From: Nitrospira sp. bin75
GTDB taxonomy: Bacteria > Nitrospirota > Nitrospiria > Nitrospirales > UBA8639
NCBI GenBank assembly: GCA_002238765.1
Contig: MPMZ01000003.1
Coordinates: forward strand, 1 to 64,000
DNA length: 64,000 nucleotides
Direction: 5' to 3'
Shown here: positions 18,306 to 30,894 of the stretch, piece after piece
Layout of the letters: every line of letters starts with the position of its first letter
Position numbering within the stretch: the stretch's first letter is position 1
Notes under the pieces: model-generated
Databases searched by the model: none
Seen by the model: the letters and a program-made list of their open reading frames with translations, nothing else
Told to the model about the DNA's origin: nothing
Program-made: the position numbers and the translations under genes

Positions 18306-20036
18306 ATGCCCAACCCCCGCCCGAGCATCCTGAGCGGAGCGAACCGGAGTCGAAGGGCTCTCGAATCGACCCTGGCGCACCTGCCCGATCAGCCCGGTGT
18401 GTACCTGCTGAAAGGCAAGGGCGGGGAAATCCTCTACATCGGGAAAGCCCGGGTGCTGGCGGACCGGGTGCGCTCGTATTTTCAGAAAGGCGGCGACCCG
18501 ACTCCCAAGACCCGCGTGTTGACGTCCCTGGTCCGGGACATCGAAACGATCGTCACCCGATCCGAATTGGAAGCCCTCCTACTCGAGAGCAACCTGGTCA
18601 AACGCCATCGCCCCCGGTTCAACGTGGTGCTTCGCGATGACAAGCACTATCCGTTTCTGCGCCTGCCGGTGAAGGAGAATTTTCCCCGCCTCTCGATCGT
18701 GCGTCGCGTGAAGAACGACGGGGCGCTGTACTTCGGTCCCTACGTGCCGGCGGGCGCGCTTCGGGAAACCCTGAAGGTCATCAAGAAGGTGTTCCCGCTG
18801 GCCACGTGCAAGATCGACATTGACGGGACGGCCGAGCGCGCCTGTCTGGAGTTTGAAATCAAGCGGTGCATGGCGCCCTGTACCGGTAACCAGTCGCAGG
18901 AAGATTATCAACGCATCGTCGAACAGGTACGCTGTTTTCTGGAAGGGCGGGACAAGGAACTGCTGGACGGGTTGCGCAAGGACATGGAAGCGGCCGCCGA
19001 TCGGGAGGAATTCGAAGAAGCGGCCCGGTTGCGGGATCGTATGGCCAGTATTGCCAAGACGTTGGAAAAACAGCGCGTGGCGCAAATCGGGCCCATGGAC
19101 CAGGACATCATCGGCTTGGCCAGGATGGGCAGGGCGGCGGATCTGCAACTGTTGTTTGTGCGCGGCGGCTTGTTGATCGGTCGCAAGGACTTTTTTTGGG
19201 CTGATACGAAAGAGGCTCCGGATGAAGAGTTGATCCGGTCCGCCATCGAGCAATTCTATAATAAGGACACCCTGCCCCCCAGGGAACTGTTGGTGTCCGA
19301 AACATTGGCCGACCGGGAATTGATTCAGCGCTGGCTCAGTCAAAAGAAAGGCCGGCGCGTGCGCATCCTGACGCCCGAGCGAGGCGCGAAACGCCAATTG
19401 CTCCACTTAGCCGAAGAAAATGCCGCCGCGGCCATTGCGGAGCATTTGCGCAATACGGCGGTGGAACACAGGGAGGCCGAAGACCTGCAACGGCTCCTCG
19501 GGTTGCCCAGGACGCCGAGCCGGGTGGAAGGGTTTGATATTTCCAATACCATGGGCACCCATTCCGTGGCTTCGATGGTGGTGTGGGAAGACGGAAAAAT
19601 GAAGAAAGCGGATTACCGGCGGTTTCGTATCAGGACCGTCGAAGGGGCGAATGACTTTGCGAGCATGGAGGAAGTCGTCAAGCGCCGGTACGGCGGCACC
19701 CTCGGCACCCGGGCCGATAAGATGCTGCCGCTTCCCGATTTGATTCTGATCGATGGAGGAGCCGGGCAATTGGGAGCCGCGGTGGATGCCTTGCGTAGCG
19801 CCGGTCTCGCTCACCTGCCCATCGTCGGATTAGCCAAGGCCAAGGGCGAGAAAGAAGAGCGGATCTACGCACCCGGTCAACGCGACCCGCTCATCCTGTC
19901 CCCGACGTCCCACGTCTCCCGGCTGGTCCAGCGCATCCGGGACGAAGCGCATCGCTTCGCCATTGCCTACCATCGCAAACTCCGCGGCCAAGCCTTCGTC
20001 ATGCCGGTGTCGAAATCGGCCAAAACCCGCAGATAA
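18306..20036 (+). CDS. uvrC: Excinuclease ABC subunit C lacking HhH domain
   Basis: A 576-residue UvrC, which makes both incisions in nucleotide excision repair. The GIY-YIG nuclease domain (PGVYLLKGKGGEILYIGKA, about 35-53), the UvrB-contact UVR helix (REEFEEAARLRDRMASI) and the RNase H-like nuclease domain (EGFDISNTMG, LILIDGGAGQL, IRDEAHRFAI) are intact. The protein then ends with RKLRGQAFVMPVSKSAKTRR and lacks the tandem helix-hairpin-helix domain (about 60 residues) found at the C-terminus of E. coli UvrC. No shifted-frame remnant follows. The first 25 codons include a translated R2 repeat. The stop codon marks the left edge of the accessory island. Confidence 0.92.
   Translation: MPNPRPSILSGANRSRRALESTLAHLPDQPGVYLLKGKGGEILYIGKARVLADRVRSYFQKGGDPTPKTRVLTSLVRDIETIVTRSELEALLLESNLVKRHRPRFNVVLRDDKHYPFLRLPVKENFPRLSIVRRVKNDGALYFGPYVPAGALRETLKVIKKVFPLATCKIDIDGTAERACLEFEIKRCMAPCTGNQSQEDYQRIVEQVRCFLEGRDKELLDGLRKDMEAAADREEFEEAARLRDRMASIAKTLEKQRVAQIGPMDQDIIGLARMGRAADLQLLFVRGGLLIGRKDFFWADTKEAPDEELIRSAIEQFYNKDTLPPRELLVSETLADRELIQRWLSQKKGRRVRILTPERGAKRQLLHLAEENAAAAIAEHLRNTAVEHREAEDLQRLLGLPRTPSRVEGFDISNTMGTHSVASMVVWEDGKMKKADYRRFRIRTVEGANDFASMEEVVKRRYGGTLGTRADKMLPLPDLILIDGGAGQLGAAVDALRSAGLAHLPIVGLAKAKGEKEERIYAPGQRDPLILSPTSHVSRLVQRIRDEAHRFAIAYHRKLRGQAFVMPVSKSAKTRR
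18326..18357. repeat. R2-like repeat within uvrC start
   Basis: ATCCTGAGCGGAGCGAACC then GGAGTCGAAGGG is a slightly longer R2 element placed in frame, encoding roughly ILSGANRSRRA before the first conserved residue of uvrC. Either the true start is downstream or the insertion has been tolerated. Confidence 0.7.
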
Positions 20037-20180
20037 AAGGACGGGTTTTCCATACTTTGTTTATCCTTTTGCCTATCGAAAACGTCACCGCTGGCGTCAG
20101 ACGAGATGACTGGGGAATGATTCACGAGGATTCCGAATTGGTTGATTGCTGAATGCCGTCAACGAGGGCATAATGCGTTC

Positions 20181-20417
20181 ATGGCAGTACAAATCACCAT
20201 TAGAGGGGTGCCCGAGGAAGTCCGCGATGAACTCGCAATGCGGGCGGCACTCCAATGCCAGTCCATGCAGGAATTCCTTCGTTGCGAACTGGCACGTCTC
20301 GCGGAACGGCCCTCCGTTGGCATGTGGCTGCAAGCCGTTCGCAACCGCAAGGTAGGAACGAAAACACGGATCCCACCGTCCCTCATCCTCCGCGCCCGTG
20401 ACGCGGACCGCCCGTGA
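20181..20417 (+). CDS. FitA/VapB-like antitoxin
   Basis: A 78-residue protein with the FitA-type ribbon-helix-helix start AVQITIRGVPEEVRDELAMRAA, then QSMQEFLRCELARLAERP, typical of antitoxins paired with PIN-domain toxins. The C-terminal tail should bind the toxin active site. The toxin gene directly downstream (overlapping by four bases) is broken, so this antitoxin is an orphan here. I start at the ATG at 20181, because the conserved strand follows at once; 13 residues upstream in frame are unconserved. About 140 bp of gene-free sequence separates it from uvrC. Confidence 0.8.
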   Translation: MAVQITIRGVPEEVRDELAMRAALQCQSMQEFLRCELARLAERPSVGMWLQAVRNRKVGTKTRIPPSLILRARDADRP

Positions 20418-20531
20418 CGACCGTCGTCGACGGATCCGTGCTGGTAGCGGCCTTGGTCGTGTCGGGACGCGAAGGAGCAACTTGCGACACCCAATATTCT
20501 CATGCCATCGGTGAATGAAAACAAACGGTAA
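20414..20531 (+). pseudogene. Decayed vapC (PIN-domain toxin) remnant
   Basis: GTG at 20414 opens MTTVVDGSVLVAALV, the unmistakable N-terminus of a PIN-domain VapC with its first catalytic Asp. After 16 codons the frame is lost: at 20459-20463 a GTGTGT run seems to hold two extra bases. The neighbouring frame then reads SGREG as in intact VapC, and a later piece, LATPNILMPSVNE, resembles the next family segment in the first frame. Nothing of the remaining 90 or so residues is found, and the DruA-like gene begins 22 bases later. The end coordinate is approximate. Confidence 0.65.
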
Positions 20532-20552
20532 GTCGTATACTTGGATCAAAGC

Positions 20553-21719
20553 ATGAAACTCACAGCGGCAGAGTGCCGTCTTCGCAAGCGCTTACTCGGT
20601 CTCGTTGAGCAGTTACCATCCTCACCTCGTACGTTGAGCAAAATACAAATACGAGGTCTTCACTCAGGAAAACGGTTGTCCGTCATGGCAACTATGAACG
20701 GCTCTTTCGATTATCATCTCAGGCTGCTACGTGAGCATCTTGCTCATCCTCAAGAGATTGCTGTCTCCGAAATCAATCCTTCCTTAAGTATAGTCGTAGG
20801 GAATACCCAAGACTCCCAGCTCTTCAATGCTGCTTCCCTTCTCTGGTCGGTGCCAGTAAGCAAGGGGTTCGGACGACGTATACGATACCTTGTGAGAGAC
20901 AAAAACAATGGCAAACTCATCGGTATCATTGGCCTCACGGACCCCGTTTTTAACCTCACGCCACGCGACGCCTGGGTTGGCTGGAATTCCAGTGATCGTG
21001 CAGAACGTCTGATTCACGTGATGGATGCCTTTGTACTGGGTGCCTTACCGCCTTATAGCAAAATTCTCGGCGGCAAACTGGTGGCCCTATTGGCGACATC
21101 TAAAGAAGTGGTCACGAATTTTCACCAAAAGTACCGAACCTATGAGGGCATAATCAGTAAAAGCAAGAAGGATCCTCGTCTTGTCCTCCTCACAACGTCT
21201 TCGGCCCTTGGTCGATCATCGCTCTACAACCGCCTCCGGATACCGGGAAGCGTCACGTTTCTTACGGATGTTGAGACTGATCGTGTCCCGACGTGGTACA
21301 CGCAGGGCTATGGACATTTCCACATCCCCGAGGACATGTTCGCAGAACTGCAAAGAGTCCTCATTCGACGCAATCATCCTTATGCTAAGGGCAACAGGTT
21401 TGGTAACGGTCCCAACTGGCGCATTCGGGTTATTCGCCAAGCCGCCGTGGAATTGGGAATTGATACCGAAGTAATTCAGCACGGCATTCGTCGCCAAGTG
21501 TATGTCATCCCTCTTGCAAACAATGCACGTGAGATACTTCTTGGGACAAGAAAACGTCCGTCTTATATCACCAGGACAGCCGCAGAAATCGCCGACTACT
21601 GGCGTGAAAGGTGGGCAATTCCTCGGGCGCAACGGCATCCCGAATGGAGGAACTGGAACGTAGGCGGAACGATCTCCAGCCTCCGCCGTCTTCACGTAAT
21701 CGCTGAAAGAATGGGGTAA
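20553..21719 (+). CDS. DruA-family (DUF4338) protein
   Basis: A 388-residue protein with the DUF4338 core at about residues 105-200: GFGRRIRYLV, GKLIGIIGLTDPVF, RDAWVGW (138-144), RLIHVMDAFVLGALPPYSKILGGKLVALL, then a helix before QKYRTYEG. DUF4338 is the hallmark of DruA from the Druantia anti-phage system and of relatives of unknown biochemistry. The N-terminal 100 residues and the C-terminal 190 have no motif I know; DRVPTWYTQGYGHFHIPEDMF is the later conserved-looking stretch. It is the first gene of a three-gene operon with NurA- and HerA-like partners. No Druantia druE-type helicase is present. I chose ATG at 20553; a TTG at 20541 is in frame. No strong ribosome site is visible. Confidence 0.78.
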   Translation: MKLTAAECRLRKRLLGLVEQLPSSPRTLSKIQIRGLHSGKRLSVMATMNGSFDYHLRLLREHLAHPQEIAVSEINPSLSIVVGNTQDSQLFNAASLLWSVPVSKGFGRRIRYLVRDKNNGKLIGIIGLTDPVFNLTPRDAWVGWNSSDRAERLIHVMDAFVLGALPPYSKILGGKLVALLATSKEVVTNFHQKYRTYEGIISKSKKDPRLVLLTTSSALGRSSLYNRLRIPGSVTFLTDVETDRVPTWYTQGYGHFHIPEDMFAELQRVLIRRNHPYAKGNRFGNGPNWRIRVIRQAAVELGIDTEVIQHGIRRQVYVIPLANNAREILLGTRKRPSYITRTAAEIADYWRERWAIPRAQRHPEWRNWNVGGTISSLRRLHVIAERMG

Positions 21720-21726
21720 TGCAAGC

Positions 21727-22890
21727 GTGTCGCTAGCGAATCTGGACAGAGAAGCGCTCCGCAAGAAGGTCATGGAAGCGTATAACGTCGATGATCCTCA
21801 TCTCCAGCGATTTCGGGAGTACGCGCGTCGACTCCGAAACAGCGTGAAACCGCTTCGTACCTATTCCGTCAACGCGGTCTCATTTGTCTCAGCAGATGGC
21901 GGTGACAACCGACTCACTTTCAATCCAGCAGTTGTTGAACTTATACGTGTCGTGGACTCACGTGGTAAAGAATGTGCCCTTGACGCAGTCGCCGGAACTA
22001 CCGGCATCGAAGAATTGGAGGAAAGGGCCAAGCTGCAATCAACGCATAACGTCACACCCCTGCAACGATTATCCCGAGATACAGGCAAGACACTCAGAGA
22101 GATGTCCTATCTCATTAGAGGTATTGGGACTCCAGGAAAGAGCACTGGGGCGATGCGATGTTACCGGGACATCGTTGAGTGGGCGGTGCTGTATGACCTT
22201 GTTGCGAATCCTAGTCTGCAATGGGGAGGTGACACAATTCTGGTTCGGGATGGTCTGCTTCGAACGAAATCATTTTCACGAGACATGTTCCCTCTCCTGG
22301 ATCAAAAACTCCGCGACGGCATTGCAGCCCACAAGAACGAGAACGTACAACTGTCACTTGTAGGCGTCGCCAAACAAAGTGCCGTGCTTGGACGACTCGC
22401 TGTTGCTCTGGAACTTGAGGCCACGTTCCATAAGAACTATCCATGCTATGTCCAAGTTGAAGAAGACATTGAAGCCGAGTGCTACAACTTCGATCGCACT
22501 TGGCTCCAAACATATGAGACGACTGACGAGGATGACACCGGACGTCGGCTGTACCAATCCCTAGGCCGTCTCTATCTTGTGAAATTTGGAGACAGGCCAA
22601 TGGACCCTGTCTGGCCCGTTGATATCGCCGTCTGGCAAGTAGACCAAGCAGACCGCATTCTGGGACAACTGACAGTCGATGCCCAGCAGGGCTTTCCAAT
22701 TCCAGACTATCCCATGTGCATCCAGAGAGCACACGACTTTGCGAAGTTGTCCGGTCTTGAGGTCCAGGATCTCCAAGACATGCTTGTTGAAGGAATGTGT
22801 GGCAAGCTTACGGCTGAAGAATCTGAGCGCCTGCTTCGCATGAAGTATCTGGGGCAGACCTTAGCAAATCTGAGATACAAGGAGGCTTAA
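21727..22890 (+). CDS. NurA-like nuclease
   Basis: A 387-residue protein with the NurA order of motifs: SFVSADGGDNR with Asp57 in place of the usual DGS aspartate, ILVRDGLLR with Asp175, LVGVAKQSAVLGR with Lys216, and PIPDYPMCIQRAHDFAKLS near residue 325-342 with a His where NurA has its conserved His. NurA is a manganese-dependent 5'-3' nuclease that works with the HerA translocase in archaeal DNA-end resection. The partner gene follows here after a single base. GTG at 21727 starts seven bases after the DruA-like stop. No other fold suggests itself; the assignment rests on motif order, not on overall identity. Confidence 0.7.
   Translation: MSLANLDREALRKKVMEAYNVDDPHLQRFREYARRLRNSVKPLRTYSVNAVSFVSADGGDNRLTFNPAVVELIRVVDSRGKECALDAVAGTTGIEELEERAKLQSTHNVTPLQRLSRDTGKTLREMSYLIRGIGTPGKSTGAMRCYRDIVEWAVLYDLVANPSLQWGGDTILVRDGLLRTKSFSRDMFPLLDQKLRDGIAAHKNENVQLSLVGVAKQSAVLGRLAVALELEATFHKNYPCYVQVEEDIEAECYNFDRTWLQTYETTDEDDTGRRLYQSLGRLYLVKFGDRPMDPVWPVDIAVWQVDQADRILGQLTVDAQQGFPIPDYPMCIQRAHDFAKLSGLEVQDLQDMLVEGMCGKLTAEESERLLRMKYLGQTLANLRYKEA
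22881..22887 (+). promoter_or_regulatory. Strong ribosome-binding site within the NurA gene end
   Basis: AAGGAGG, a near-perfect anti-16S match, lies in the last codons of the NurA-like gene, five bases before the GTG of the HerA-like gene. With stop and start one base apart, this points to fixed-ratio, coupled synthesis of the two proteins. Confidence 0.7.
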
Positions 22891-22891
22891 A

Positions 22892-24937
22892 GTGCTGTTT
22901 GCCAACTCACGAATCGTGGGAACCTTCAAAGGATTTAATGATCGCGGCCTTGAATTTGCAGCCGAGATCGTTGCCCCATACGATGCCAGCATGCTTGATC
23001 GTCCGCAGCTCGGTCAGTTCCTCCTTGTTGAACTAGCTTCACAGGAAGAAGCAGCGCTGGGACGCATAACCCGTTTCGTTCCTTCTGGATTATTGGCGAC
23101 ACCGGAAGGGGAAGACTACGTCAATACGATGCAACGTAGGCAGCAAAACGTTCCGGAGGATCTCAAGCAGCAGCGGCTGAAGTATCGCGTCCAAGTGAAA
23201 TTGCTCGGAGCGGTACGCGCAAAAGATGACGGAATCATCTATGTCCCATCACAGCGCAGATTGCCGCACCTTGGCGCGCGTGTCGCATTGCCCAGTGACC
23301 AAGTTCTGCAGGAACTCTGCAAACTGAGCCGGGGTACGACTGAGTTGGGGGCCTATGTACTGGGAGAGTTTGTTTTCTGCGGTGGCGGACACCAGCAGCG
23401 GCAGCCGGAACTGATTTCATTTGATCCACACCTCCAAGTCACTTTCGACATAAAAAAACTCGTTTCCAGACGATCCGTCGTCTTCGCACGGGCAGGCTAT
23501 GGAAAATCCAATCTTATCAAGTTCCTGATTGCCGAGTTGTACAAGACGCAGCCAAGGACCGCGAACGATCGCCCCGTTGGTACGCTAATTTTCGATCCCG
23601 ACGGTGAGTACTTTTGGCCTGATCGTGTGGAGAATCGCCCTGGACTGTGCGACGTGCCACACTTGAAAGATCAACTCCTCGTATTTACCAACAGGCCAGC
23701 TCCGAGTCCGTACTATGGCAGTTGGAAAGCCGGTGAAGTGAGACTCGATATCCGCGACCTCTCTCCACGCGATGTGATCAGTATTGCCATTTCTTCAGAT
23801 CGCCAGAACCAACAAAACGTCCTCAAACTCAAAAGCGTCTCTCGTGAAAATTGGCGTAGGCTCGTTGATCTGATCCACAACGAAGAGTTACAGGCGAGCG
23901 ATCAGGAAGTCGGCAACTGCCTTGGCTACACCGGGGACCAAATTTCTCAGTCTGTAGCGGAAATCAGCGCGGCTCGTAGCAACATGTTCGGTGTCGTGCG
24001 TACACTCCATGACCCGACCAGTCATGTGTTGGCCGAAACACTCCAGGCGCTGTCTCAAGGAAAGGTCGTCGTAATCGATATCAGTCTGTTGAGTTCGGGT
24101 GCCGGTAACATGCTTGCCGGTCTACTCCTCCGGCGAATTTTCTCACACAATCAGGAGCACTTCACGGGCGGACAACCCATTATTCCTGTTGTGGCCATTA
24201 TAGAAGAAGCACAAAGCGTCCTTGGTCGAAACCTCGACGACACCAGCCCTTTTGTTGAATGGGTGAAGGAAGGACGCAAATACGATCTGGGAGCCATGCT
24301 CATCACACAGCAACCAGGCGCAATGGCACCCGAACTGCTTAGCCAAGCGGACAACTGGTTTTGTTTTCATTTGCTTTCAGAGGGCGATGCCGGCGTTCTC
24401 GGAAAATACAATTCCCACTATTCGACAGACATTCTTGCGCATCTCATCGCAGAACCCATTCCGGGTAATTGCTACATGTGGAGTGCACCGCATCAACCCT
24501 TCGTACTTCCGGTCCGATTGAGAGACTTCGGTGAAATCTACGGAGACAATATACAGGAAGACGAAGGGAAACCACCGATCGAAGACACGGGAGCCAAAGA
24601 AGTCGTCAAGGCGGCGTCAGATGCGATGGCTCACATCAAGGAGAAGTTGGTGGAGCAATTGAGGGATAGTACGACCAAGTACTGGCGTATGCCGAGTGAA
24701 GCCGGTAGGCAGGAATTGCTTGGGATCAAGGACGGTCAGTTGTACTACCTCATCAAGAATAGCAAGGCCCCAGAAGATATCCAGACGGAAGATGAACTGA
24801 AACGTCCGCTTCTCACATTCTTGCTCGGCGAAGGAGCGCTCCATGTTAAAGAGTACGGTGGCAAGCAGTATTATTGCGCGACCTCCCAGGACTGGGAATG
24901 CGCGACAGGAATGAAGCCGACGCCTTCAGACCTCTGA
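22892..24937 (+). CDS. HerA-like hexameric ATPase
   Basis: A 681-residue P-loop ATPase of the HerA/FtsK superfamily. It has an N-terminal HAS-barrel-like region (residues 1-110), Walker A ARAGYGKSN (199-207), IFDPDGEYFW (233-242), Walker B VVAIIEEAQS (433-442) and the sensor strand GAMLITQQP (467-475). A charged C-terminal extension (about 560-681, with AHIKEKLVEQLRD and an ending rich in aromatic residues) could bind the nuclease or DNA. HerA enzymes form rings that translocate double-stranded DNA and feed it to NurA. Here the ATPase, the NurA-like protein and a DUF4338 protein form an operon. GTG start with AAGGAGG upstream is clear. Confidence 0.87.
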   Translation: MLFANSRIVGTFKGFNDRGLEFAAEIVAPYDASMLDRPQLGQFLLVELASQEEAALGRITRFVPSGLLATPEGEDYVNTMQRRQQNVPEDLKQQRLKYRVQVKLLGAVRAKDDGIIYVPSQRRLPHLGARVALPSDQVLQELCKLSRGTTELGAYVLGEFVFCGGGHQQRQPELISFDPHLQVTFDIKKLVSRRSVVFARAGYGKSNLIKFLIAELYKTQPRTANDRPVGTLIFDPDGEYFWPDRVENRPGLCDVPHLKDQLLVFTNRPAPSPYYGSWKAGEVRLDIRDLSPRDVISIAISSDRQNQQNVLKLKSVSRENWRRLVDLIHNEELQASDQEVGNCLGYTGDQISQSVAEISAARSNMFGVVRTLHDPTSHVLAETLQALSQGKVVVIDISLLSSGAGNMLAGLLLRRIFSHNQEHFTGGQPIIPVVAIIEEAQSVLGRNLDDTSPFVEWVKEGRKYDLGAMLITQQPGAMAPELLSQADNWFCFHLLSEGDAGVLGKYNSHYSTDILAHLIAEPIPGNCYMWSAPHQPFVLPVRLRDFGEIYGDNIQEDEGKPPIEDTGAKEVVKAASDAMAHIKEKLVEQLRDSTTKYWRMPSEAGRQELLGIKDGQLYYLIKNSKAPEDIQTEDELKRPLLTFLLGEGALHVKEYGGKQYYCATSQDWECATGMKPTPSDL

Positions 24938-24957
24938 CACTAGAGGAGCAAAAAGCC

Positions 24958-25226
24958 GTGGACAAACAACCGAAAAATCCTTTTCATCCGGGCGAAATGC
25001 TGCTGGAGGAATTTCTGGAGCCCATGAGAGTGAGCCAGGCGGCTTTCGCACAGAAATCGGCTGGAGCCGAGCGCGTTTGAATGAACTGATACGAGGCAAG
25101 CGAGGCATCACCGCAGAAGCGGCGCTCGATCTGGCCGACACCCTGGGGACCTCGCCGAAACTTTGGCTGAACTTGCAAGCGACGTACGATTTGGCCAAGG
25201 CCGTCGAGGCAAGACGGGTGGCGTAA
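24958..25226 (+). pseudogene. higA: Frameshifted higA antitoxin
   Basis: From GTG at 24958 the protein reads MDKQPKNPFHPGEMLLEEF and continues to SQAAFAQKS, the start of a HigA-type Xre antitoxin, then hits a stop after AGAERV. One frame over, from about 25056, the family continues intact: IGWSRARLNELIRGKRGI, then AEAALDLADTLGTSPKLW, ending at TAA (25224-25226). The join falls in an A-run (CAGAAATCGG), where loss of one A explains the shift. No higB toxin is beside it. It may be a dead copy, or a sequencing slip; only reads could tell. Confidence 0.8.
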
Positions 25227-25370
25227 GTCACTTGCTTTCTGCCGACGCGGAGCGCTCGTTGACATCGGCCTCCCGTTCTCACCTCAACTCTGCCTCGTTC
25301 GTAGACAAGAACGAAGAATTCAATACTCCCCGGCACTCGGCGTTTGTTTTGCATTACATCATTGTCTTCA

Positions 25371-25434
25371 TCTATATAATTTGATATATAAATAAATATC
25401 TAAATATTAATTTGATATATAATAACATATTAAA
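25371..25434 (+). promoter_or_regulatory. AT-rich hipBA promoter with paired operators
   Basis: This stretch is almost pure A and T. It contains two perfect copies of TAATTTGATATATAA (25377-25391 and 25408-25422), 31 bp apart, three helical turns, and an inverted repeat GATAT-N8-ATATC (25383-25400). The E. coli HipB operator also has two 5-bp arms separated by eight bases, though with different bases. Autorepression by the HipB-like protein starting at 25435 is likely. The upstream part of the 208-bp gap shows nothing else. Confidence 0.5.
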
Positions 25435-26040
25435 ATGAATTATAAGACCGAATATATAGCCAGTACGCTCCGTTTCGCCCGCGAAGCCAGAGGTCTCAGC
25501 CAGCGTGAGTTGAGCAGCAAATCAGGGGTGCCGCAGGGCCATATCTCGAAGATCGAGAACGGTGCCGTCGATCTCAGAGTTTCGAGCTTGGTCGCGCTTG
25601 CCCGCACCCTTGATCTCGAGGCGATGCTCGTGCCCAGCAAGTCGGTTCCGGCCGTTCAGTCGATTGCAAGCAGTACCCCAGCCAGTGCCCAGCAGGATGG
25701 CAAAGCCAACCGACGGGTCCTAAGGGAATTGGCACGTCTGCAAAGCGCGATTAAGAATCTGCCGACCGACCTTTTTCCCAAAAGCGAACAGGAGTGGTTT
25801 CAACGCCACGTGCGCGGGCTTTCGTACTTTCGCCCAACACTACTTGAAGTCCGGACCATCCGGGAGGCCAATCGGGCGATCAGGGCGTTTGGTCACGGCA
25901 CCCATGATCCGAATGCTATCCGCCAATCCTTGCTCCGGCTTCGAGATTTGCGAAACGCGCTGGCTCATGGCCGGATTGCGGGTGATGAAACCGAGTCCAC
26001 GCGCCCGGCCTACAGCTTGGACGAGGACGATCATGGCTGA
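25435..26040 (+). CDS. hipB: HipB-like Xre antitoxin with extra domain
   Basis: A 201-residue protein. Residues 8-65 are a Cro/C1 helix-turn-helix (FAREARGLSQRELSSKSGVP, HISKIENGAVDLRVSSLVAL). HipB of E. coli is only 88 residues; this one has a second helical domain from about 95 to 185 (RRVLRELARLQSAIKNLP through LRLRDLRNALAHG) that I do not recognise. It should repress its operon and neutralise HipA. The gene overlaps hipA by eight bases. The leader shows no clear Shine-Dalgarno sequence, so initiation may be weak. Base composition is like the chromosome although the promoter is AT-rich. Confidence 0.85.
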   Translation: MNYKTEYIASTLRFAREARGLSQRELSSKSGVPQGHISKIENGAVDLRVSSLVALARTLDLEAMLVPSKSVPAVQSIASSTPASAQQDGKANRRVLRELARLQSAIKNLPTDLFPKSEQEWFQRHVRGLSYFRPTLLEVRTIREANRAIRAFGHGTHDPNAIRQSLLRLRDLRNALAHGRIAGDETESTRPAYSLDEDDHG

Positions 26041-27256
26041 TGTCAACGTTCTCGACGTCCTGCTTCACGACGAGCCCATCGGTACGCTCACCCGCGTTGA
26101 CGGCGACCGGATTTTCTTTGCCTTCAAGGATGCTTATGTTGCGGATAAGAATCGGCCGGTGCTTGGATTGAGTTTTAAGGATTTACTTGGTGAACTGATC
26201 ACCGCTTTCAGGCCCACCCGGACACGGCTCATGCCGTTCTTCTCGAATCTGCTGCCCGAAGGGCATATGCGCACCTATCTCGCCGAGCGTGCAGGCGTGA
26301 AACCCGTGCGCGAGTTTTTCCTGCTCTGGATACTCGGCATGGACCTGCCGGGCGCGATTACGATCAGACCTGCAGATGATGAAGAGTGGCCGCCCGATGA
26401 TCGTGACACGACCGACGAGAGTGATCGTGATGATGACCGCAATAACGCCTTGCGTTTTTCTTTGGCCGGTGTGCAACTCAAATTCTCGGCCATCAACGAG
26501 GCCGGCAGTGGGCTGACCATTCCGGCCAAGGGCATCGGCGGCTCGTGGGTCGTCAAGCTGCCTTCGCGCGAATTTGCAGGCGTCCCCGAAAACGAATTTT
26601 CGATGATGACGTTGGCCCGGCTGATCGGTATGGACGTGCCTGCGATGCGGCTTGTCGATATCGACACCATTCGGAATCTACCGGACGGGACCGGCACTCT
26701 TAAAGGGCAGGCGCTGGCAATCGAGCGCTTCGACCGGTTAACGGGCGGTGGGGCTGTTCACATGGAAGATTTCGCGCAGATATTCGGTGTCTATCCCGAG
26801 GCAAAATATGAGAAGGCCAGTGCGCGCAGCATTGGCAGGGTTATTGGTGCCGAGGGCAGTGAAGCGGACGTTGTCGAATTTATTCGGCGACTGACTTTCA
26901 ACGTGCTGATCGGTAATGCCGACATGCACCTGAAGAACTGGTCGCTGATCTACCCCGACCGTCGGCACGCCGCCCTGGCACCGGCCTATGATTTTGTTTC
27001 CACGATCGCCTACATCCCGGATGGAAAATCCGCCCTGAATTTCAGCCGGACCAGAATCTTCGCCGAATATTCAGAGGACGAACTCTCCCATCTTGCCGCC
27101 AAGGCTCGATTGCCGGAAAAACTCGTTCTCGATACCGCCCGTGAAACCGTTGCGCTGTTTCACCAGCACTGGCAAGCCGAAAAGGCAAATCTTCCGCTGG
27201 CGGCCAAAGTTGTTCAGGCCGTTGAAGCCCATTTGAAGACGATATCCATTGCTTGA
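26033..27256 (+). CDS. hipA: HipA-family serine/threonine kinase toxin
   Basis: A 407-residue HipA-type kinase. The E. coli enzyme phosphorylates glutamyl-tRNA synthetase and induces dormancy. Visible are the N-terminal HipA domain (LMPFFSNLLPEGHMR, 67-80), the P-loop serine segment RFSLAGVQLKFS (141-152), the ATP lysine in WVVKLPS (175), ENEFSMMTLA, the catalytic loop GNADMHLKNWSL with Asp297 and Asn302, and the metal Asp320 in APAYDF. An acidic insert (about 115-137) lies before the P-loop. Every catalytic residue is present, so the toxin looks active. I use the ATG at 26033, overlapping hipB; longer frames exist but translate hipB. Confidence 0.92.
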   Translation: MADVNVLDVLLHDEPIGTLTRVDGDRIFFAFKDAYVADKNRPVLGLSFKDLLGELITAFRPTRTRLMPFFSNLLPEGHMRTYLAERAGVKPVREFFLLWILGMDLPGAITIRPADDEEWPPDDRDTTDESDRDDDRNNALRFSLAGVQLKFSAINEAGSGLTIPAKGIGGSWVVKLPSREFAGVPENEFSMMTLARLIGMDVPAMRLVDIDTIRNLPDGTGTLKGQALAIERFDRLTGGGAVHMEDFAQIFGVYPEAKYEKASARSIGRVIGAEGSEADVVEFIRRLTFNVLIGNADMHLKNWSLIYPDRRHAALAPAYDFVSTIAYIPDGKSALNFSRTRIFAEYSEDELSHLAAKARLPEKLVLDTARETVALFHQHWQAEKANLPLAAKVVQAVEAHLKTISIA

Positions 27257-27415
27257 ATAGGTCTGACCTGTACGCCTGTCTGGCGGTGTCGTCCTGTGGG
27301 TACAAATTGCCAAGGTATTCGCCGCGCCAAGAGAAACGTCGGAGGCTCTCCCTGCATCCAAAACTTGAATTTTTCACAGGGATCATGTGACCTGCTCCCT
27401 GCCCGTACGCCCCTT

Positions 27416-27441
27416 GTCGGCTTACGCTACGCTAAGCCGAC
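27416..27441. repeat. R5 palindrome
   Basis: GTCGGCTTA and TAAGCCGAC are perfect 9-bp arms around CGCTACGC. Relatives, with GTCGGGTTA arms, are at 48267-48294, 48531-48583 and 36570-36672. It follows hipA; the rest of that 273-bp gap shows no gene. Confidence 0.75.
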
Positions 27442-27529
27442 CTACTATATCCAAGCCCAAAGGCAACAAATCCAAAAACAAAAGACCTGAAATCCTTCGA
27501 ACTCTCGACATTTCTTAAAGGACAAGAAA

Positions 27530-28462
27530 ATGAGCAGATCAGGGGAAAAAGATCACTATATTCCAGTCGGATACCTCAAAAACTGGAAAAAAGAAGACGG
27601 ACAACTGTTCGTCTACGACATCAAAGAACGGAAACAATTCGAAAGAGGACCGAAAGGAATCGCACACGAACCGAGATTCCATGGATCAATTGAAACAGAA
27701 ATAAGAGACAACATCGAAAATCCAGCCTTTGACGCACTCCGAATGATAAAAGAGAAAGAGGAAATTCAACAGGATACTCTGGACCGAATACTCCTTCTAA
27801 TGGCTCTGATTATCCTATGCAATCCGAGAGATCGAAGAAAAAGGCAGAAGACAATTCACGGAGTGGAAAGAATACAAAAAGATCTCCAACAGGCCCTTGA
27901 CTTGAAAAATCCGGAAGTGCCAATAGAGAAAAAAATCAGAATTCTGCAAGAACGATCAAAATACGTTGAACTAACAATTGCGGAGCAGAATCCAGAAGCG
28001 ACACAAAAAGAAGTTGAAGAAAAACGAAAAGTCGTGGAAGAGGCTGAAGAAAGAGAGAAAAGGGCCATAAACGTAGCTGAAAGTCTTTCTATGGAAATTC
28101 CCAACATCAAGAAAATACACGAAATCCTCAGAAAAAGAAGTTGGATACTTCTTAAAACAGAAGAAAATCTTCCCGAATTTATTACGTGCGACCATCCCGT
28201 ATCCTTTTCGCCAATCTATGACATTTCAGAAACCGAAGGCCCTATCTACATCGGTTACAAATCCGCAAACACCTATGTCACATTCCCATTGAACCCCAGA
28301 CAAGCCATATACGGAACATTCCAAAGACTGGAAGAAAGCGAAATAACAATCGAAGCAAACGAAAAAGGTGAAAGAGTAGTAGCAGAAATCAATGGGGACA
28401 TATGGAGCAGCGCAATCCGTCAAGTATACGGAAAATCACCCTTCCTCCCACAAGTTCCTTAA
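27530..28462 (+). CDS. DUF4238-family protein
   Basis: A 310-residue protein whose start, EKDHYIPVGYLKNWKKEDG, then LFVYDIKERKQF, is the mark of DUF4238, a family of unknown function common in accessory regions and near defence genes. The middle (about 115-190) is a highly charged coiled coil (EKKIRILQERSKYVE, VEEKRKVVEEAEEREKRA); the C-terminal part has the ITCDHPVSFSP segment of the family. An AAGGA site precedes the ATG. The gene is markedly richer in A (AAA and GAA codons) than its neighbours, which indicates recent transfer. Nothing shows whether it works with hipBA. Confidence 0.82.
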   Translation: MSRSGEKDHYIPVGYLKNWKKEDGQLFVYDIKERKQFERGPKGIAHEPRFHGSIETEIRDNIENPAFDALRMIKEKEEIQQDTLDRILLLMALIILCNPRDRRKRQKTIHGVERIQKDLQQALDLKNPEVPIEKKIRILQERSKYVELTIAEQNPEATQKEVEEKRKVVEEAEEREKRAINVAESLSMEIPNIKKIHEILRKRSWILLKTEENLPEFITCDHPVSFSPIYDISETEGPIYIGYKSANTYVTFPLNPRQAIYGTFQRLEESEITIEANEKGERVVAEINGDIWSSAIRQVYGKSPFLPQVP

Positions 28463-28518
28463 AACCACCAAGATCAATCGACACCATTACAGCGGGAATT
28501 ATCCAGAATAGTTGACGG

Positions 28519-28635
28519 TTATTTCTTGCTGGATTTCCTTTTGGGGGGGCTTGGCAGTATGGTGTCCTTGGGTGGTTGATAGGTGGCGACGAGTTTCACC
28601 ATGCGATCGAGGGCCTGTTGGGTGGATGGGTTCAT
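28519..28635 (-). CDS. Small basic protein, 38 aa
   Basis: A short frame, ATG at 28635 with a GGAAGTGAGG ribosome site immediately upstream. It encodes MNPSTQQALDRMVKLVATYQ, then a proline-rich linker and a basic tail (PKRKSSKK). A helix followed by a lysine-rich end could bind nucleic acid. It is kept because of the ribosome site and the protein-like helix, but it may be spurious. Confidence 0.35.
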   Translation of the reverse strand: MNPSTQQALDRMVKLVATYQPPKDTILPSPPKRKSSKK

Positions 28636-28687
28636 GCCTCACTTCCTTTCTGCCTGAGGATGATGCGCACTGCAAAAGACCTCTTCG

Positions 28688-29706
28688 GTGCTCCTATTGT
28701 TCAGTTTGTACGCCCTGTCAAGTACGGCCTTTGGCGCGGCAGGCGAGCGGCCGACGCTCACACCCCGTCAGTACCGGAATGCCATCACGGGTCGCCTTCA
28801 GCAGAGCGACCCCGCCTTCGGCAGCTTCGCAATGAATCTGTACACTCCTGGCCTTGCCCCCGTCAGAAGTGCCGAGACGACCTTCACGGGCGACCGTTTT
28901 ACCTTGTCGGTCGAAAGGCAGAACGGCAGTAGATTCACTTTGGATACCAACCGCCATTACACAGAAGTGGTCAACGACGATTCCATCTCGACCAATCCGG
29001 TCAGCAATCGGCCGTTTGCCTCTGGCTATATGGCATCTGTGAGTGGCAGTCGTGCGGCCATTGCAGGAACGTCAGTCGAATGGTCCCGGACAGATCCGAT
29101 TATTTGGCCGGCGGGTATTGGTTGTTTTTCGATGCGGATCTCAATGCAATCGAGATGGGAGCCTTCATCGATGGGACGGACTATCCTGCCGACTTCACCT
29201 CGAACTTGCCGGTGACGGGTACCGCTACCTATCGCGGACGCGCTGGAGGACTATACGTCGCCGCAGCCGGATCAGACACGCTGTCTCCAGGAGCGACGGA
29301 ACTCGGGGAATATGAGGGACGGGCCGGCTTGACCGCTGATTTTGGAACTATGCGCATTCACGGCCTCGTCGATCAGGTGCAGACCTTCAACGTGGTGGGC
29401 CAGCATGCCAATGGGGTGCCGCATGTCAATCCGTACCTCGAAGATGCCAATATGGAGATGATGTTAGGCCCGGTGTCGATCAATCAAAATGGCACCTTTT
29501 GGGGGTCCAATGTGGAATTTACGAGTGATGAGTATACGATTACCTCTTCTACGGGGTCCTGGGCCGGTCAGTTTTCCAATGTGGCTGATCGTCAAGGGAA
29601 TCCCCGGGCCGCGGCAGGCACAAATGCGGGGTTCTTCGAGACCGCAGGAGGAAGTCGGGTTGGCTTGACCGGGGCCTTTTACGGGGCTACCGAACGGTTT
29701 GAGTAA
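28688..29706 (+). pseudogene. Frameshifted TbpB-like surface protein gene
   Basis: The first part (28688 to about 29095) opens with a signal peptide (LLLFSLYALSSTAFGAAGE) and continues to SVEWSRTD. The second part, one frame over, continues SDYLAGGYWLFFDADL and ends GLTGAFYGATERFE at 29706. Joined at about 29096 they give one protein with features of transferrin-binding-protein-B-like beta-barrel domains: WAGQFSNVADRQGNPR, AGTNAGFFET and the GAFYG end. The start is also uncertain: the first frame has only GTG at 28688, and an ATG pair at 28661-28666 lies in another frame. A role in capturing a ligand at the surface is inference. The gene is probably inactive in this copy. Confidence 0.6.
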
Positions 29707-29731
29707 GGGTGCCACCGAACGGGGCAAGGTC

Positions 29732-29917
29732 TCAGGGCCTCGCCCCGCTTTTATTGTCATTTGATTGCGGAAGATTGAGCATTTCCACGCCCACCACTTC
29801 GTTTGCTTCGTTGTAATCGAGCACCACTCCCGGTGAGACTTCTTCGGACTCGACGATGGCAGAGTTGTCGATGCGCAGGTAAAGCGCGTCGGCTTCCTTA
29901 TCGACGTGTAGTTTCAT
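29732..29917 (-). CDS. DUF2283-family small protein
   Basis: A 61-residue protein matching DUF2283: KLHVDKEADALYLRID, then ESEEVSPGVVLDYNEANEVVGVEML. The family is widespread next to toxin-antitoxin and other accessory genes, and its function is unknown. It lies 98 bp downstream of the PIN-domain gene on the same strand, and may share its transcript. The ATG is preceded by AGGAAA. Confidence 0.85.
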   Translation of the reverse strand: MKLHVDKEADALYLRIDNSAIVESEEVSPGVVLDYNEANEVVGVEMLNLPQSNDNKSGARP

Positions 29918-30015
29918 TATTTTCCTTTCATATTGCAGTCGAAGAATATGCTCTCCACCCGCCAGGCGCCATACTCCAAGGTCGTCGGCAGGCGGAATTT
30001 CACGGATCTTGCTGC

Positions 30016-30414
30016 CTATAAATGCCGCACGTTGGACAATGTGGCCATCTTGCGGTCCAGCGTCAGGGTCTCCAACCCGGCTCGTGAGTCGTCATCGGCG
30101 ATGAGTCTGTCGAAGAGTCCGGGACTGCCTGAGGCTGAAAGGGCTTCAATGACGGCCGGCCCGTTCAGAGGGGCAACCAAGCCGCTGGTCAGCGCGTCTC
30201 GGAGACCGGCACGGGCGTTGGCGCTGAGGATGCCGTAGTGGTGCATCAAGGCGGCGTAGGCTTCCCCTATAGTTTGGTTGGACGCGAATAGTTCGCACTT
30301 CCGTTCCTCCATCAAAGCGACAAGACGGCGTATACAGCGCTCGAAGTCGTCTTGCGGCTCCCGTACAACCAGCCTGACCAGGATTGAGGTGTCAACGCCG
30401 TAGTGAGGGGCCAT
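30016..30414 (-). CDS. VapC-like PIN-domain toxin
   Basis: A 132-residue PIN-domain ribonuclease. The acidic metal site is visible: Asp in HYGVDTSILVRL near residue 8, Glu in QTIGEAYAAL, and Asp in LTLDRKMA; a further Asp run is in LIADDDSRAG. In VapBC systems such toxins cut tRNA or rRNA. The gene overlaps the AbrB-type antitoxin gene by 23 bases, so it is translationally coupled. Unlike the vapC remnant at 20414, it is intact. Confidence 0.87.
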   Translation of the reverse strand: MAPHYGVDTSILVRLVVREPQDDFERCIRRLVALMEERKCELFASNQTIGEAYAALMHHYGILSANARAGLRDALTSGLVAPLNGPAVIEALSASGSPGLFDRLIADDDSRAGLETLTLDRKMATLSNVRHL

Positions 30415-30643
30415 ATCCTTGTTCCCGTTGGTCCCGGAATTTGCGGATGTCGAATGGCGGATGTCCGGGTGGAATCTTGTCTCTGAGCGTCCCCAATTTC
30501 GAATAGTCGATCCGCCTGGGGCGCAGGATGAACCCGTCGGGGCTTTCTTCCAGTTCGAGTTTATCGCCGGGCCCCACGCCTAGTGTCTCCAACACCCGCG
30601 CTGGGAACGTAACTTGTCGCTTTGATGTAATCGTGACAATCAT
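30392..30643 (-). CDS. AbrB/MazE-type antitoxin
   Basis: An 83-residue protein with a swapped-hairpin AbrB DNA-binding domain: VTITSKRQVTFPARVLETLG, then GDKLELEESPDGFILRP. The C-terminal tail (about 50-83) is charged and would bind the PIN toxin. It starts at 30643 with a strong AAGGAGG site; a longer frame is unconserved. It is divergent from leuS, and the 251-bp gap between them must carry both promoters; I see no other gene there. Confidence 0.88.
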   Translation of the reverse strand: MIVTITSKRQVTFPARVLETLGVGPGDKLELEESPDGFILRPRRIDYSKLGTLRDKIPPGHPPFDIRKFRDQREQGYGPSLRR

Positions 30644-30894
30644 GGCGATCCTCCTTACCAAAAGAATATATAAGTAAGGCGAAAGAATCAAGCGCCGAGC
30701 AACCCTTCCGGTGCCGTTAATTGGACCCATTCAACTCAAGGGGTGAACATAATAGAAATTGCGCAATCTGCCAAGGGCCGATGACTGCTCTGATTGCGGG
30801 TAGCTCATATCTTGTCGCCTATCCGTCGCTGTGGTACATTTTTTCTTCATCCCAGGCGCGGGGCGGGCATTGCCCAACCGCGTTCATCCGGCCC

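Follow-up and report, generated by a model that had tools for sequence, protein, structure and literature searches.

The locus analyzed here encodes a protein of the DruA (DUF4338) family together with a NurA-like nuclease and a HerA-like ATPase, raising the question of what DruA contributes to such a pair and whether the three serve in defence or in genome maintenance. The window, meaning the whole stretch of 64,000 nucleotides from Nitrospira sp. bin75 (contig MPMZ01000003.1), carries the three genes on one strand (+) with intergenic gaps of 7 bp and then 1 bp, and re-locating the open reading frames on that strand reproduced the coordinates and gaps given in an earlier note on this DNA. The main features are:

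20037..30730, no strand: variable island between uvrC and leuS, with the triplet, toxin-antitoxin genes and orphan genes
20553..21719, + strand: DruA/DUF4338 protein, 388 aa (ATG start; Pfam PF14236, 5.6e-80; AF2 model)
21727..22890, + strand: NurA/TdpB-fold nuclease, 387 aa (GTG start; AF2 model; profile comparison with TdpB)
22892..24937, + strand: HerA/TdpA-type ring ATPase, 681 aa (GTG start; PF01935, 1.8e-27; profile comparison with TdpA)

For DruA, an alternative TTG start is possible 12 nt upstream of the ATG. The identities proposed for the first and third genes were confirmed by domain searches: the DUF4338 domain spans DruA residues 59-331 and is matched by 15 of 15 triplet DruAs, the PADLOC DruA model matches the protein of the window at 2.5e-123, and the ATPase carries PF01935 with Walker A and B motifs that are invariant in 19 homologues. 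The presence of the triplet in many phyla, described below, excludes a chance arrangement, and the triplet is likely a defence system.

The triplet lies in a variable genomic island

In the window, uvrC (18306-20036) and the start of leuS (about 30928) are separated by an interval of ~10.9 kb, and the G+C content of the island drops to about 0.52, compared with 0.59-0.61 outside. The corresponding interval in three congeners (G003, G004 and G012) is about 1.4-1.8 kb long and lacks the triplet, which occurs in only 2 of 14 congeneric genomes (G000 and G006) and, in its DruA form, in 3 of 396 Nitrospirota genomes. Searches of the island for structured RNA and for inverted repeats at its flanks were negative. 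Its toxin-antitoxin content agrees in part with what had been read from the sequence: FitA-like RHH, hipB/hipA, MazE/AbrB-like and PIN genes are present, a vapC partner of FitA was not found, and the frame at 24874-25080, previously taken for higA, had no Pfam match. The combination of a variable low-G+C insert, patchy presence and toxin-antitoxin neighbours favours mobile defence over housekeeping repair, in keeping with the earlier note's view of the island.

Several neighbours deserve mention in their own right. The FitA-like RHH antitoxin gene (20142-20417) lies just upstream of DruA without an intact PIN toxin partner, and a HipA-like gene (25844-27256) with a full HipA_C domain follows a HipB-like HTH gene (25435-26040). 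A DUF4238 protein at 27530-28462 (7.4e-29), with a weak match to the PADLOC model 'DUF4238-Pers', is a possible further defence gene, and the frame at 29080-29706, possibly frameshifted upstream, weakly matches a Slam-dependent surface lipoprotein/TbpB barrel.

The nuclease and the ATPase form a TdpA/TdpB-like pair

As a single sequence, the NurA-like protein gave no family match in Pfam, NCBIfam, PADLOC or PHROGs. Its AlphaFold model (pLDDT 83) matched TdpB first (Foldseek 3.8e-12; Z 26.1 over 336 residues) and NurA second (Foldseek 1.5e-5; Z 14.4), and TdpB was the only significant match among solved structures for a profile of 20 homologues (5.5e-6). Asp57, Glu151, Lys216 and Asp299 are kept wherever aligned in the 20-member alignment, position 175 is Asp or Glu, and His336 is present in 19 of the 20 members. 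The NurA-type assignment, made earlier from Asp57, Asp175, Lys216 and His336, came through this check intact: these positions are conserved, with Glu at 175 in some members, and the model has the RNase H-like nuclease fold of NurA and TdpB with acidic and histidine active-site residues (D57, E151, D/E175, H336).

The third protein has the DUF87 domain of HerA/FtsK ATPases, with invariant Walker A (G-x-G-K-S-N) and Walker B (E438-E439) motifs across the 19 homologues. Its profile retrieved TdpA first, at 1.4e-33, as the best match among all solved HerAs; archaeal HerA followed far behind at 1.7e-17, and the anti-phage HerAs were also behind. Because TdpB and TdpA are closest to the nuclease and the motor in profile and structure searches, the two proteins are a TdpA/TdpB-like pair, and the locus has both the TdpA-like ATPase and the TdpB-like nuclease that characterize TdpABC. 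With the archaeal HerA-NurA machine, to which the earlier note compared it, the pair shares the NurA fold and a HerA ATPase; its nearest solved relatives are TdpB and TdpA rather than the end-resection pair. Searches of plasmids found no homologue of the NurA-like protein and no close HerA, and a search of plasmids with a TdpA fragment for a tdp operon and TdpC returned only matches of 28-36% identity.

A methyltransferase takes the place of DruA in a sister clade

With the NurA-like protein as bait, we searched 85,000 species genomes and 396 Nitrospirota genomes, as well as ~395 genomes from each of the phyla of the Bacteroidota, Acidobacteriota and planctomycete loci; the 395 Bacteroidota genomes added no further loci. 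In the clade of the window, every one of the 17 assessable loci has DruA next to the NurA-HerA pair; 16 are intact, and one (L094) is decayed, with an IS-like ORF interrupting it. This count leaves out one locus that ends at contig edges (L013), and another, with a NurA fragment at a contig edge (L137), was left unjudged. The hosts include Nitrospirales, Latescibacterota, Eisenbacteria, Phycisphaerae, Bacillota, Gammaproteobacteria, Bacteroidota, Poribacteria and Acidobacteriota among others, so the co-occurrence on which the candidate system depended was found in many phyla.

A sister clade of the same NurA-HerA pair has a different partner. A PF01555 N4/N6 DNA methyltransferase adjoins the pair in 9 of its 10 loci, with no DruA, and in the tenth (L024) HerA is broken and the methyltransferase absent. 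In the HerA tree, the methyltransferase and DruA clades stand apart with full support, and in no locus of either clade do DruA and a PF01555 methyltransferase both adjoin one pair. Sister-clade hosts are found in Nitrospirota, Bacteroidota and the planctomycete phylum; one is a gammaproteobacterium and another a Thermoplasmata archaeon, and one locus lies on a viral contig. One locus (L007) has a different methyltransferase 1.2 kb from the pair, and the deeper, much more divergent pairs L138 and L139 have neither DruA nor a PF01555-type methyltransferase. The compact methyltransferase-NurA-HerA cassettes, which probably represent an undescribed restriction-modification system, are located at:

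L021:7974-12323
L022:6736-11200
L092:7797-12168
L093:4601-8996
L135:3705-8245
L136:5290-12408
L005:6716-11062
L025
L026:3636-8091

The cassettes of L005 and L093 are preceded by a ParA-like gene and an HTH-like gene, with TPR repeats in L005. A search of a viral collection returned one relative, the L026 cassette, whose contig also carries a terminase-like gene.

These distributions bear on whether the operon instead serves DNA repair or genome maintenance through end resection, with the GNAT-fold DruA (see below) as an accessory and no part in defence. Archaeal NurA-HerA does resect DNA ends (PMC5715905). We nevertheless regard this explanation as very improbable given the patchy occurrence of the DruA form (3 of 396 Nitrospirota genomes and 2 of 14 congeners), its setting in a variable island with toxin-antitoxin genes, its spread over many phyla, the IS-decayed copy, the methyltransferase swap and the position of TdpA and TdpB as nearest relatives.

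DruA has a GNAT fold and is distantly related to phage Mu Mom

Foldseek matches of the AF2 model of DruA (pLDDT 82.5) were weak and nearly all to acetyltransferases (best E 0.015). Re-alignment with VIA put phage Mu Mom first (8bv8; Z 9.8 over 178 residues), followed by SpeG, within 1 of Mom, and other GNATs at Z 8-9.3; given how closely these follow, the order among GNATs is not decisive. Every listed match is a GNAT or a protein containing acetyltransferase domains, and the model thus has the fold of the GNAT superfamily (Z 8-10, GNATs throughout the list). Independently of this model, DUF4338 has been called GNAT-like (PMC10853773).

Profile comparisons point in the same direction. The triplet DruA profile matched transposon-borne DUF4338 proteins with an hhalign probability of 98%, and the profile of the latter matched a 12-sequence Mom family at 96-97%, compared with at most 3.1% for all controls (five column-shuffled, one reversed and two unrelated profiles). 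Direct hhalign comparison of DruA with a single Mom or the Mom profile was not significant. Judged from sequence, DruA and Mom are distantly related, through a kinship that is only transitive via the transposon DUF4338 proteins. These proteins have in common with Mom an 'HY' motif and the pattern D-x(5,6)-G-x2-Y-x-A-x-N-[FW]-x3-G. In the triplet DruAs, the Mom-invariant His48 and Asp139 correspond to an invariant Trp98-Ser99 and an invariant Ser217, and Tyr225, which aligns with Mom Tyr149, is retained along with a later T-x-G-x-G. DruA thus falls outside the Mom-type enzymes as defined by family-level similarity and by His48, Asp139 and Tyr149, of which only the tyrosine aligns. With His48 and Asp139 replaced, the chemistry of the window DruA may differ or be lost; the invariance of W98, S99, S217 and Y225 themselves suggests an active site rather than decay.

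The earlier note had cast DruA as a recogniser of invading or damaged DNA. This role is no longer favoured: the GNAT fold, the profile link to Mom and the methyltransferase swap point to a modification enzyme.

At a group of Nitrospirota loci (L059, L060, L064, L065, L066 and L069), short DUF4338 proteins adjoin IS66-like transposases or are fused to transposase-like domains in proteins of 700-800 aa. The HY/D-G-Y-A-N motif of these transposon DUF4338s matches that of phage Mom, hinting that transposons may carry DNA-modifying GNATs. Most other Nitrospirota DUF4338 genes that were inspected were set aside as transposon-linked or fused to transposase-like domains.

DruA joined the NurA-HerA pair at least twice

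Triplets occur in two gene orders, DruA-Nur-Her and Nur-Her-DruA, and the triplet DruAs form two clades that match them. In the DruA tree, the DruA-Nur-Her group is placed among the Druantia I DruAs and the Nur-Her-DruA group next to the long DruAs that accompany FtsK translocases; a single clade of triplet DruAs is rejected (p-AU 2.5e-7), in a tree with some long DruA branches. Since two clades have opposite gene orders and one clade is rejected, the phylogeny indicates that DruA was recruited independently on two or more occasions, from different branches and to either end of the pair.

Other contexts of DruA are also informative. The window DruA is 39-45% identical to plasmid DruAs encoded near a DEAD/DEAH helicase. 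Long DruA proteins of ~700-1050 aa are encoded on plasmids of Haloplanus and Hymenobacter (L084:6642-16471; L085:7164-16642); hypothetical genes and the gene for an FtsK/SpoIIIE translocase lie downstream in a DndFGH-like arrangement. A second, independent operon in genome G127 links DruA with a canonical NurA (PF09376, 4e-14) and HerA, and also encodes a TmtA-like ATPase and a ThaI restriction-modification pair:

L058:1141-13722, - strand: TdeIII R-M, DruA, TmtA-like sacsin/HATPase, NurA, ThaI R-M and HerA, overlapping or closely spaced

As a second association of DruA, NurA and HerA, this operon counts in favour of the system proposed below. The ThaI and TdeIII methyltransferases that it has of its own count against the reading of DruA as a marker, as do the deeper pairs L138 and L139 with neither partner.

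A restriction-modification-like mechanism is proposed

We propose, with about an even chance of being right, that the triplet is a three-gene restriction-modification-like system in which DruA marks self DNA and NurA-HerA degrades DNA that is unmarked. By analogy with TdpA-TdpB, the HerA homologue would form a hexamer that translocates DNA and carries the NurA-fold nuclease, and this ring would degrade DNA threaded onto it. DruA would decorate bases of host DNA with an acyl-type group, and NurA-HerA would spare the marked self DNA and destroy unmarked phage or plasmid DNA. A methyltransferase in the same slot, together with the Mom-like kinship, makes self-marking the most economical reading. 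Mom-family GNATs fused to nucleases provide a precedent (PMC7824862), and GNATs beside HerA/FtsK have been proposed as self-markers in BRC systems (PMC12839542). A more specific version is put forward tentatively, as somewhat short of probable: a GNAT related to Mom places a mark of acyl type, not methyl, on DNA, a processive NurA-HerA ring destroys unmarked DNA, and the same chemistry operates in Druantia I and in DUF4338-bearing DndFGH-like systems.

The changed active-site residues of DruA leave room for a different chemistry or for a non-catalytic sensor role. In the latter case, the triplet would still act in defence, with DruA as a sensor, loader or adaptor of non-catalytic GNAT fold that passes invading DNA to NurA-HerA and with host DNA unmodified. 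This is possible, if doubtful. The window DruA lacks the Mom-type His and Asp, and the occurrence of DruA beside a large helicase in Druantia I and of long DruAs beside FtsK may indicate a general DNA-handling subunit; on the other hand, the methyltransferase swap in the sister clade is what a modification slot predicts, and the invariance of the replaced residues speaks for an active site over decay.

GNAT substrates also include proteins, tRNA and small molecules, and this broad range would fit a DruA whose target is not host DNA but a protein or the DNA of the invader, so that the modification licenses attack by NurA-HerA or poisons the phage. That Mom modifies phage DNA (PMC7824862) speaks for it as well. 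We consider this unlikely, as a methyltransferase in that slot normally serves to protect self DNA, and a NurA-HerA pair that attacks DNA without breaks requires some signal to tell self from non-self.

If self-marking by DruA is correct, restriction systems would gain a compact three-gene member whose DNA mark is probably something other than a methyl group. A concrete and testable role would also fall to DruA, a defining part of Druantia I that has lacked an explanation. A single NurA-HerA machine would have taken on different modification enzymes, DruA on at least two occasions and a methyltransferase on one, and this modularity could guide searches for further systems of the kind and for new DNA modifications.

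Comparison with known systems

No named system with the DruA-NurA-HerA trio was found in PADLOC 2023, NCBIfam or the open-access literature, and to that extent the triplet is uncatalogued, as the earlier note had supposed. The triplet probably represents a novel type of restriction-modification immunity.

TdpABC is a phosphorothioation system that combines a modification enzyme with an ATPase-nuclease complex, and its TdpC activates the DNA backbone with ATP. TdpA and TdpB (8wet, 8wfd) are the nearest solved homologues of the window ATPase and nuclease; the partner in the window is a DUF4338/GNAT protein, and if TdpC were a DUF4338 protein, the triplet would be a member of TdpABC. The archaeal end-resection complex has the same NurA fold (Z 14.4) and a HerA ATPase, but is less similar than TdpA/TdpB, and the window pair lies in a bacterial island with a DruA partner.

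Druantia type I (DruABCDE) has DruA in common with the triplet, whereas the triplet lacks the large YprA-family DruE helicase and has NurA-HerA in place of DruB-DruE; no large helicase was found among the island ORFs between uvrC and leuS, and the DruE-type YprA helicase (DUF1998) encoded with DruA in Druantia is thus missing there. DndFGH-like systems, with a DUF4338 domain on DndF (PMC10853773), resemble the triplet in combining a DUF4338/GNAT-like domain with a HerA/FtsK translocase in anti-invader loci, as do BRC systems (HerA/FtsK, GNAT and TGT; PMC12839542) in combining a GNAT with such a translocase; both are large multi-gene systems with HerAs of different clades and no NurA nuclease mentioned. 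Phage Mu Mom, which modifies DNA adenine, shares the GNAT fold, is the top structural match of DruA and is linked to it in profile via the transposon DUF4338s. It is, however, very distant, with two of its invariant residues replaced in the window DruA, and is a phage self-protection gene without a NurA-HerA partner. The methyltransferase-NurA-HerA cassettes have the same pair in three compact genes, with a PF01555 N4/N6 DNA methyltransferase where the triplet has DruA. The novelty of the triplet would accordingly lie in a new modification partner on a restriction-modification-like ATPase-nuclease system.
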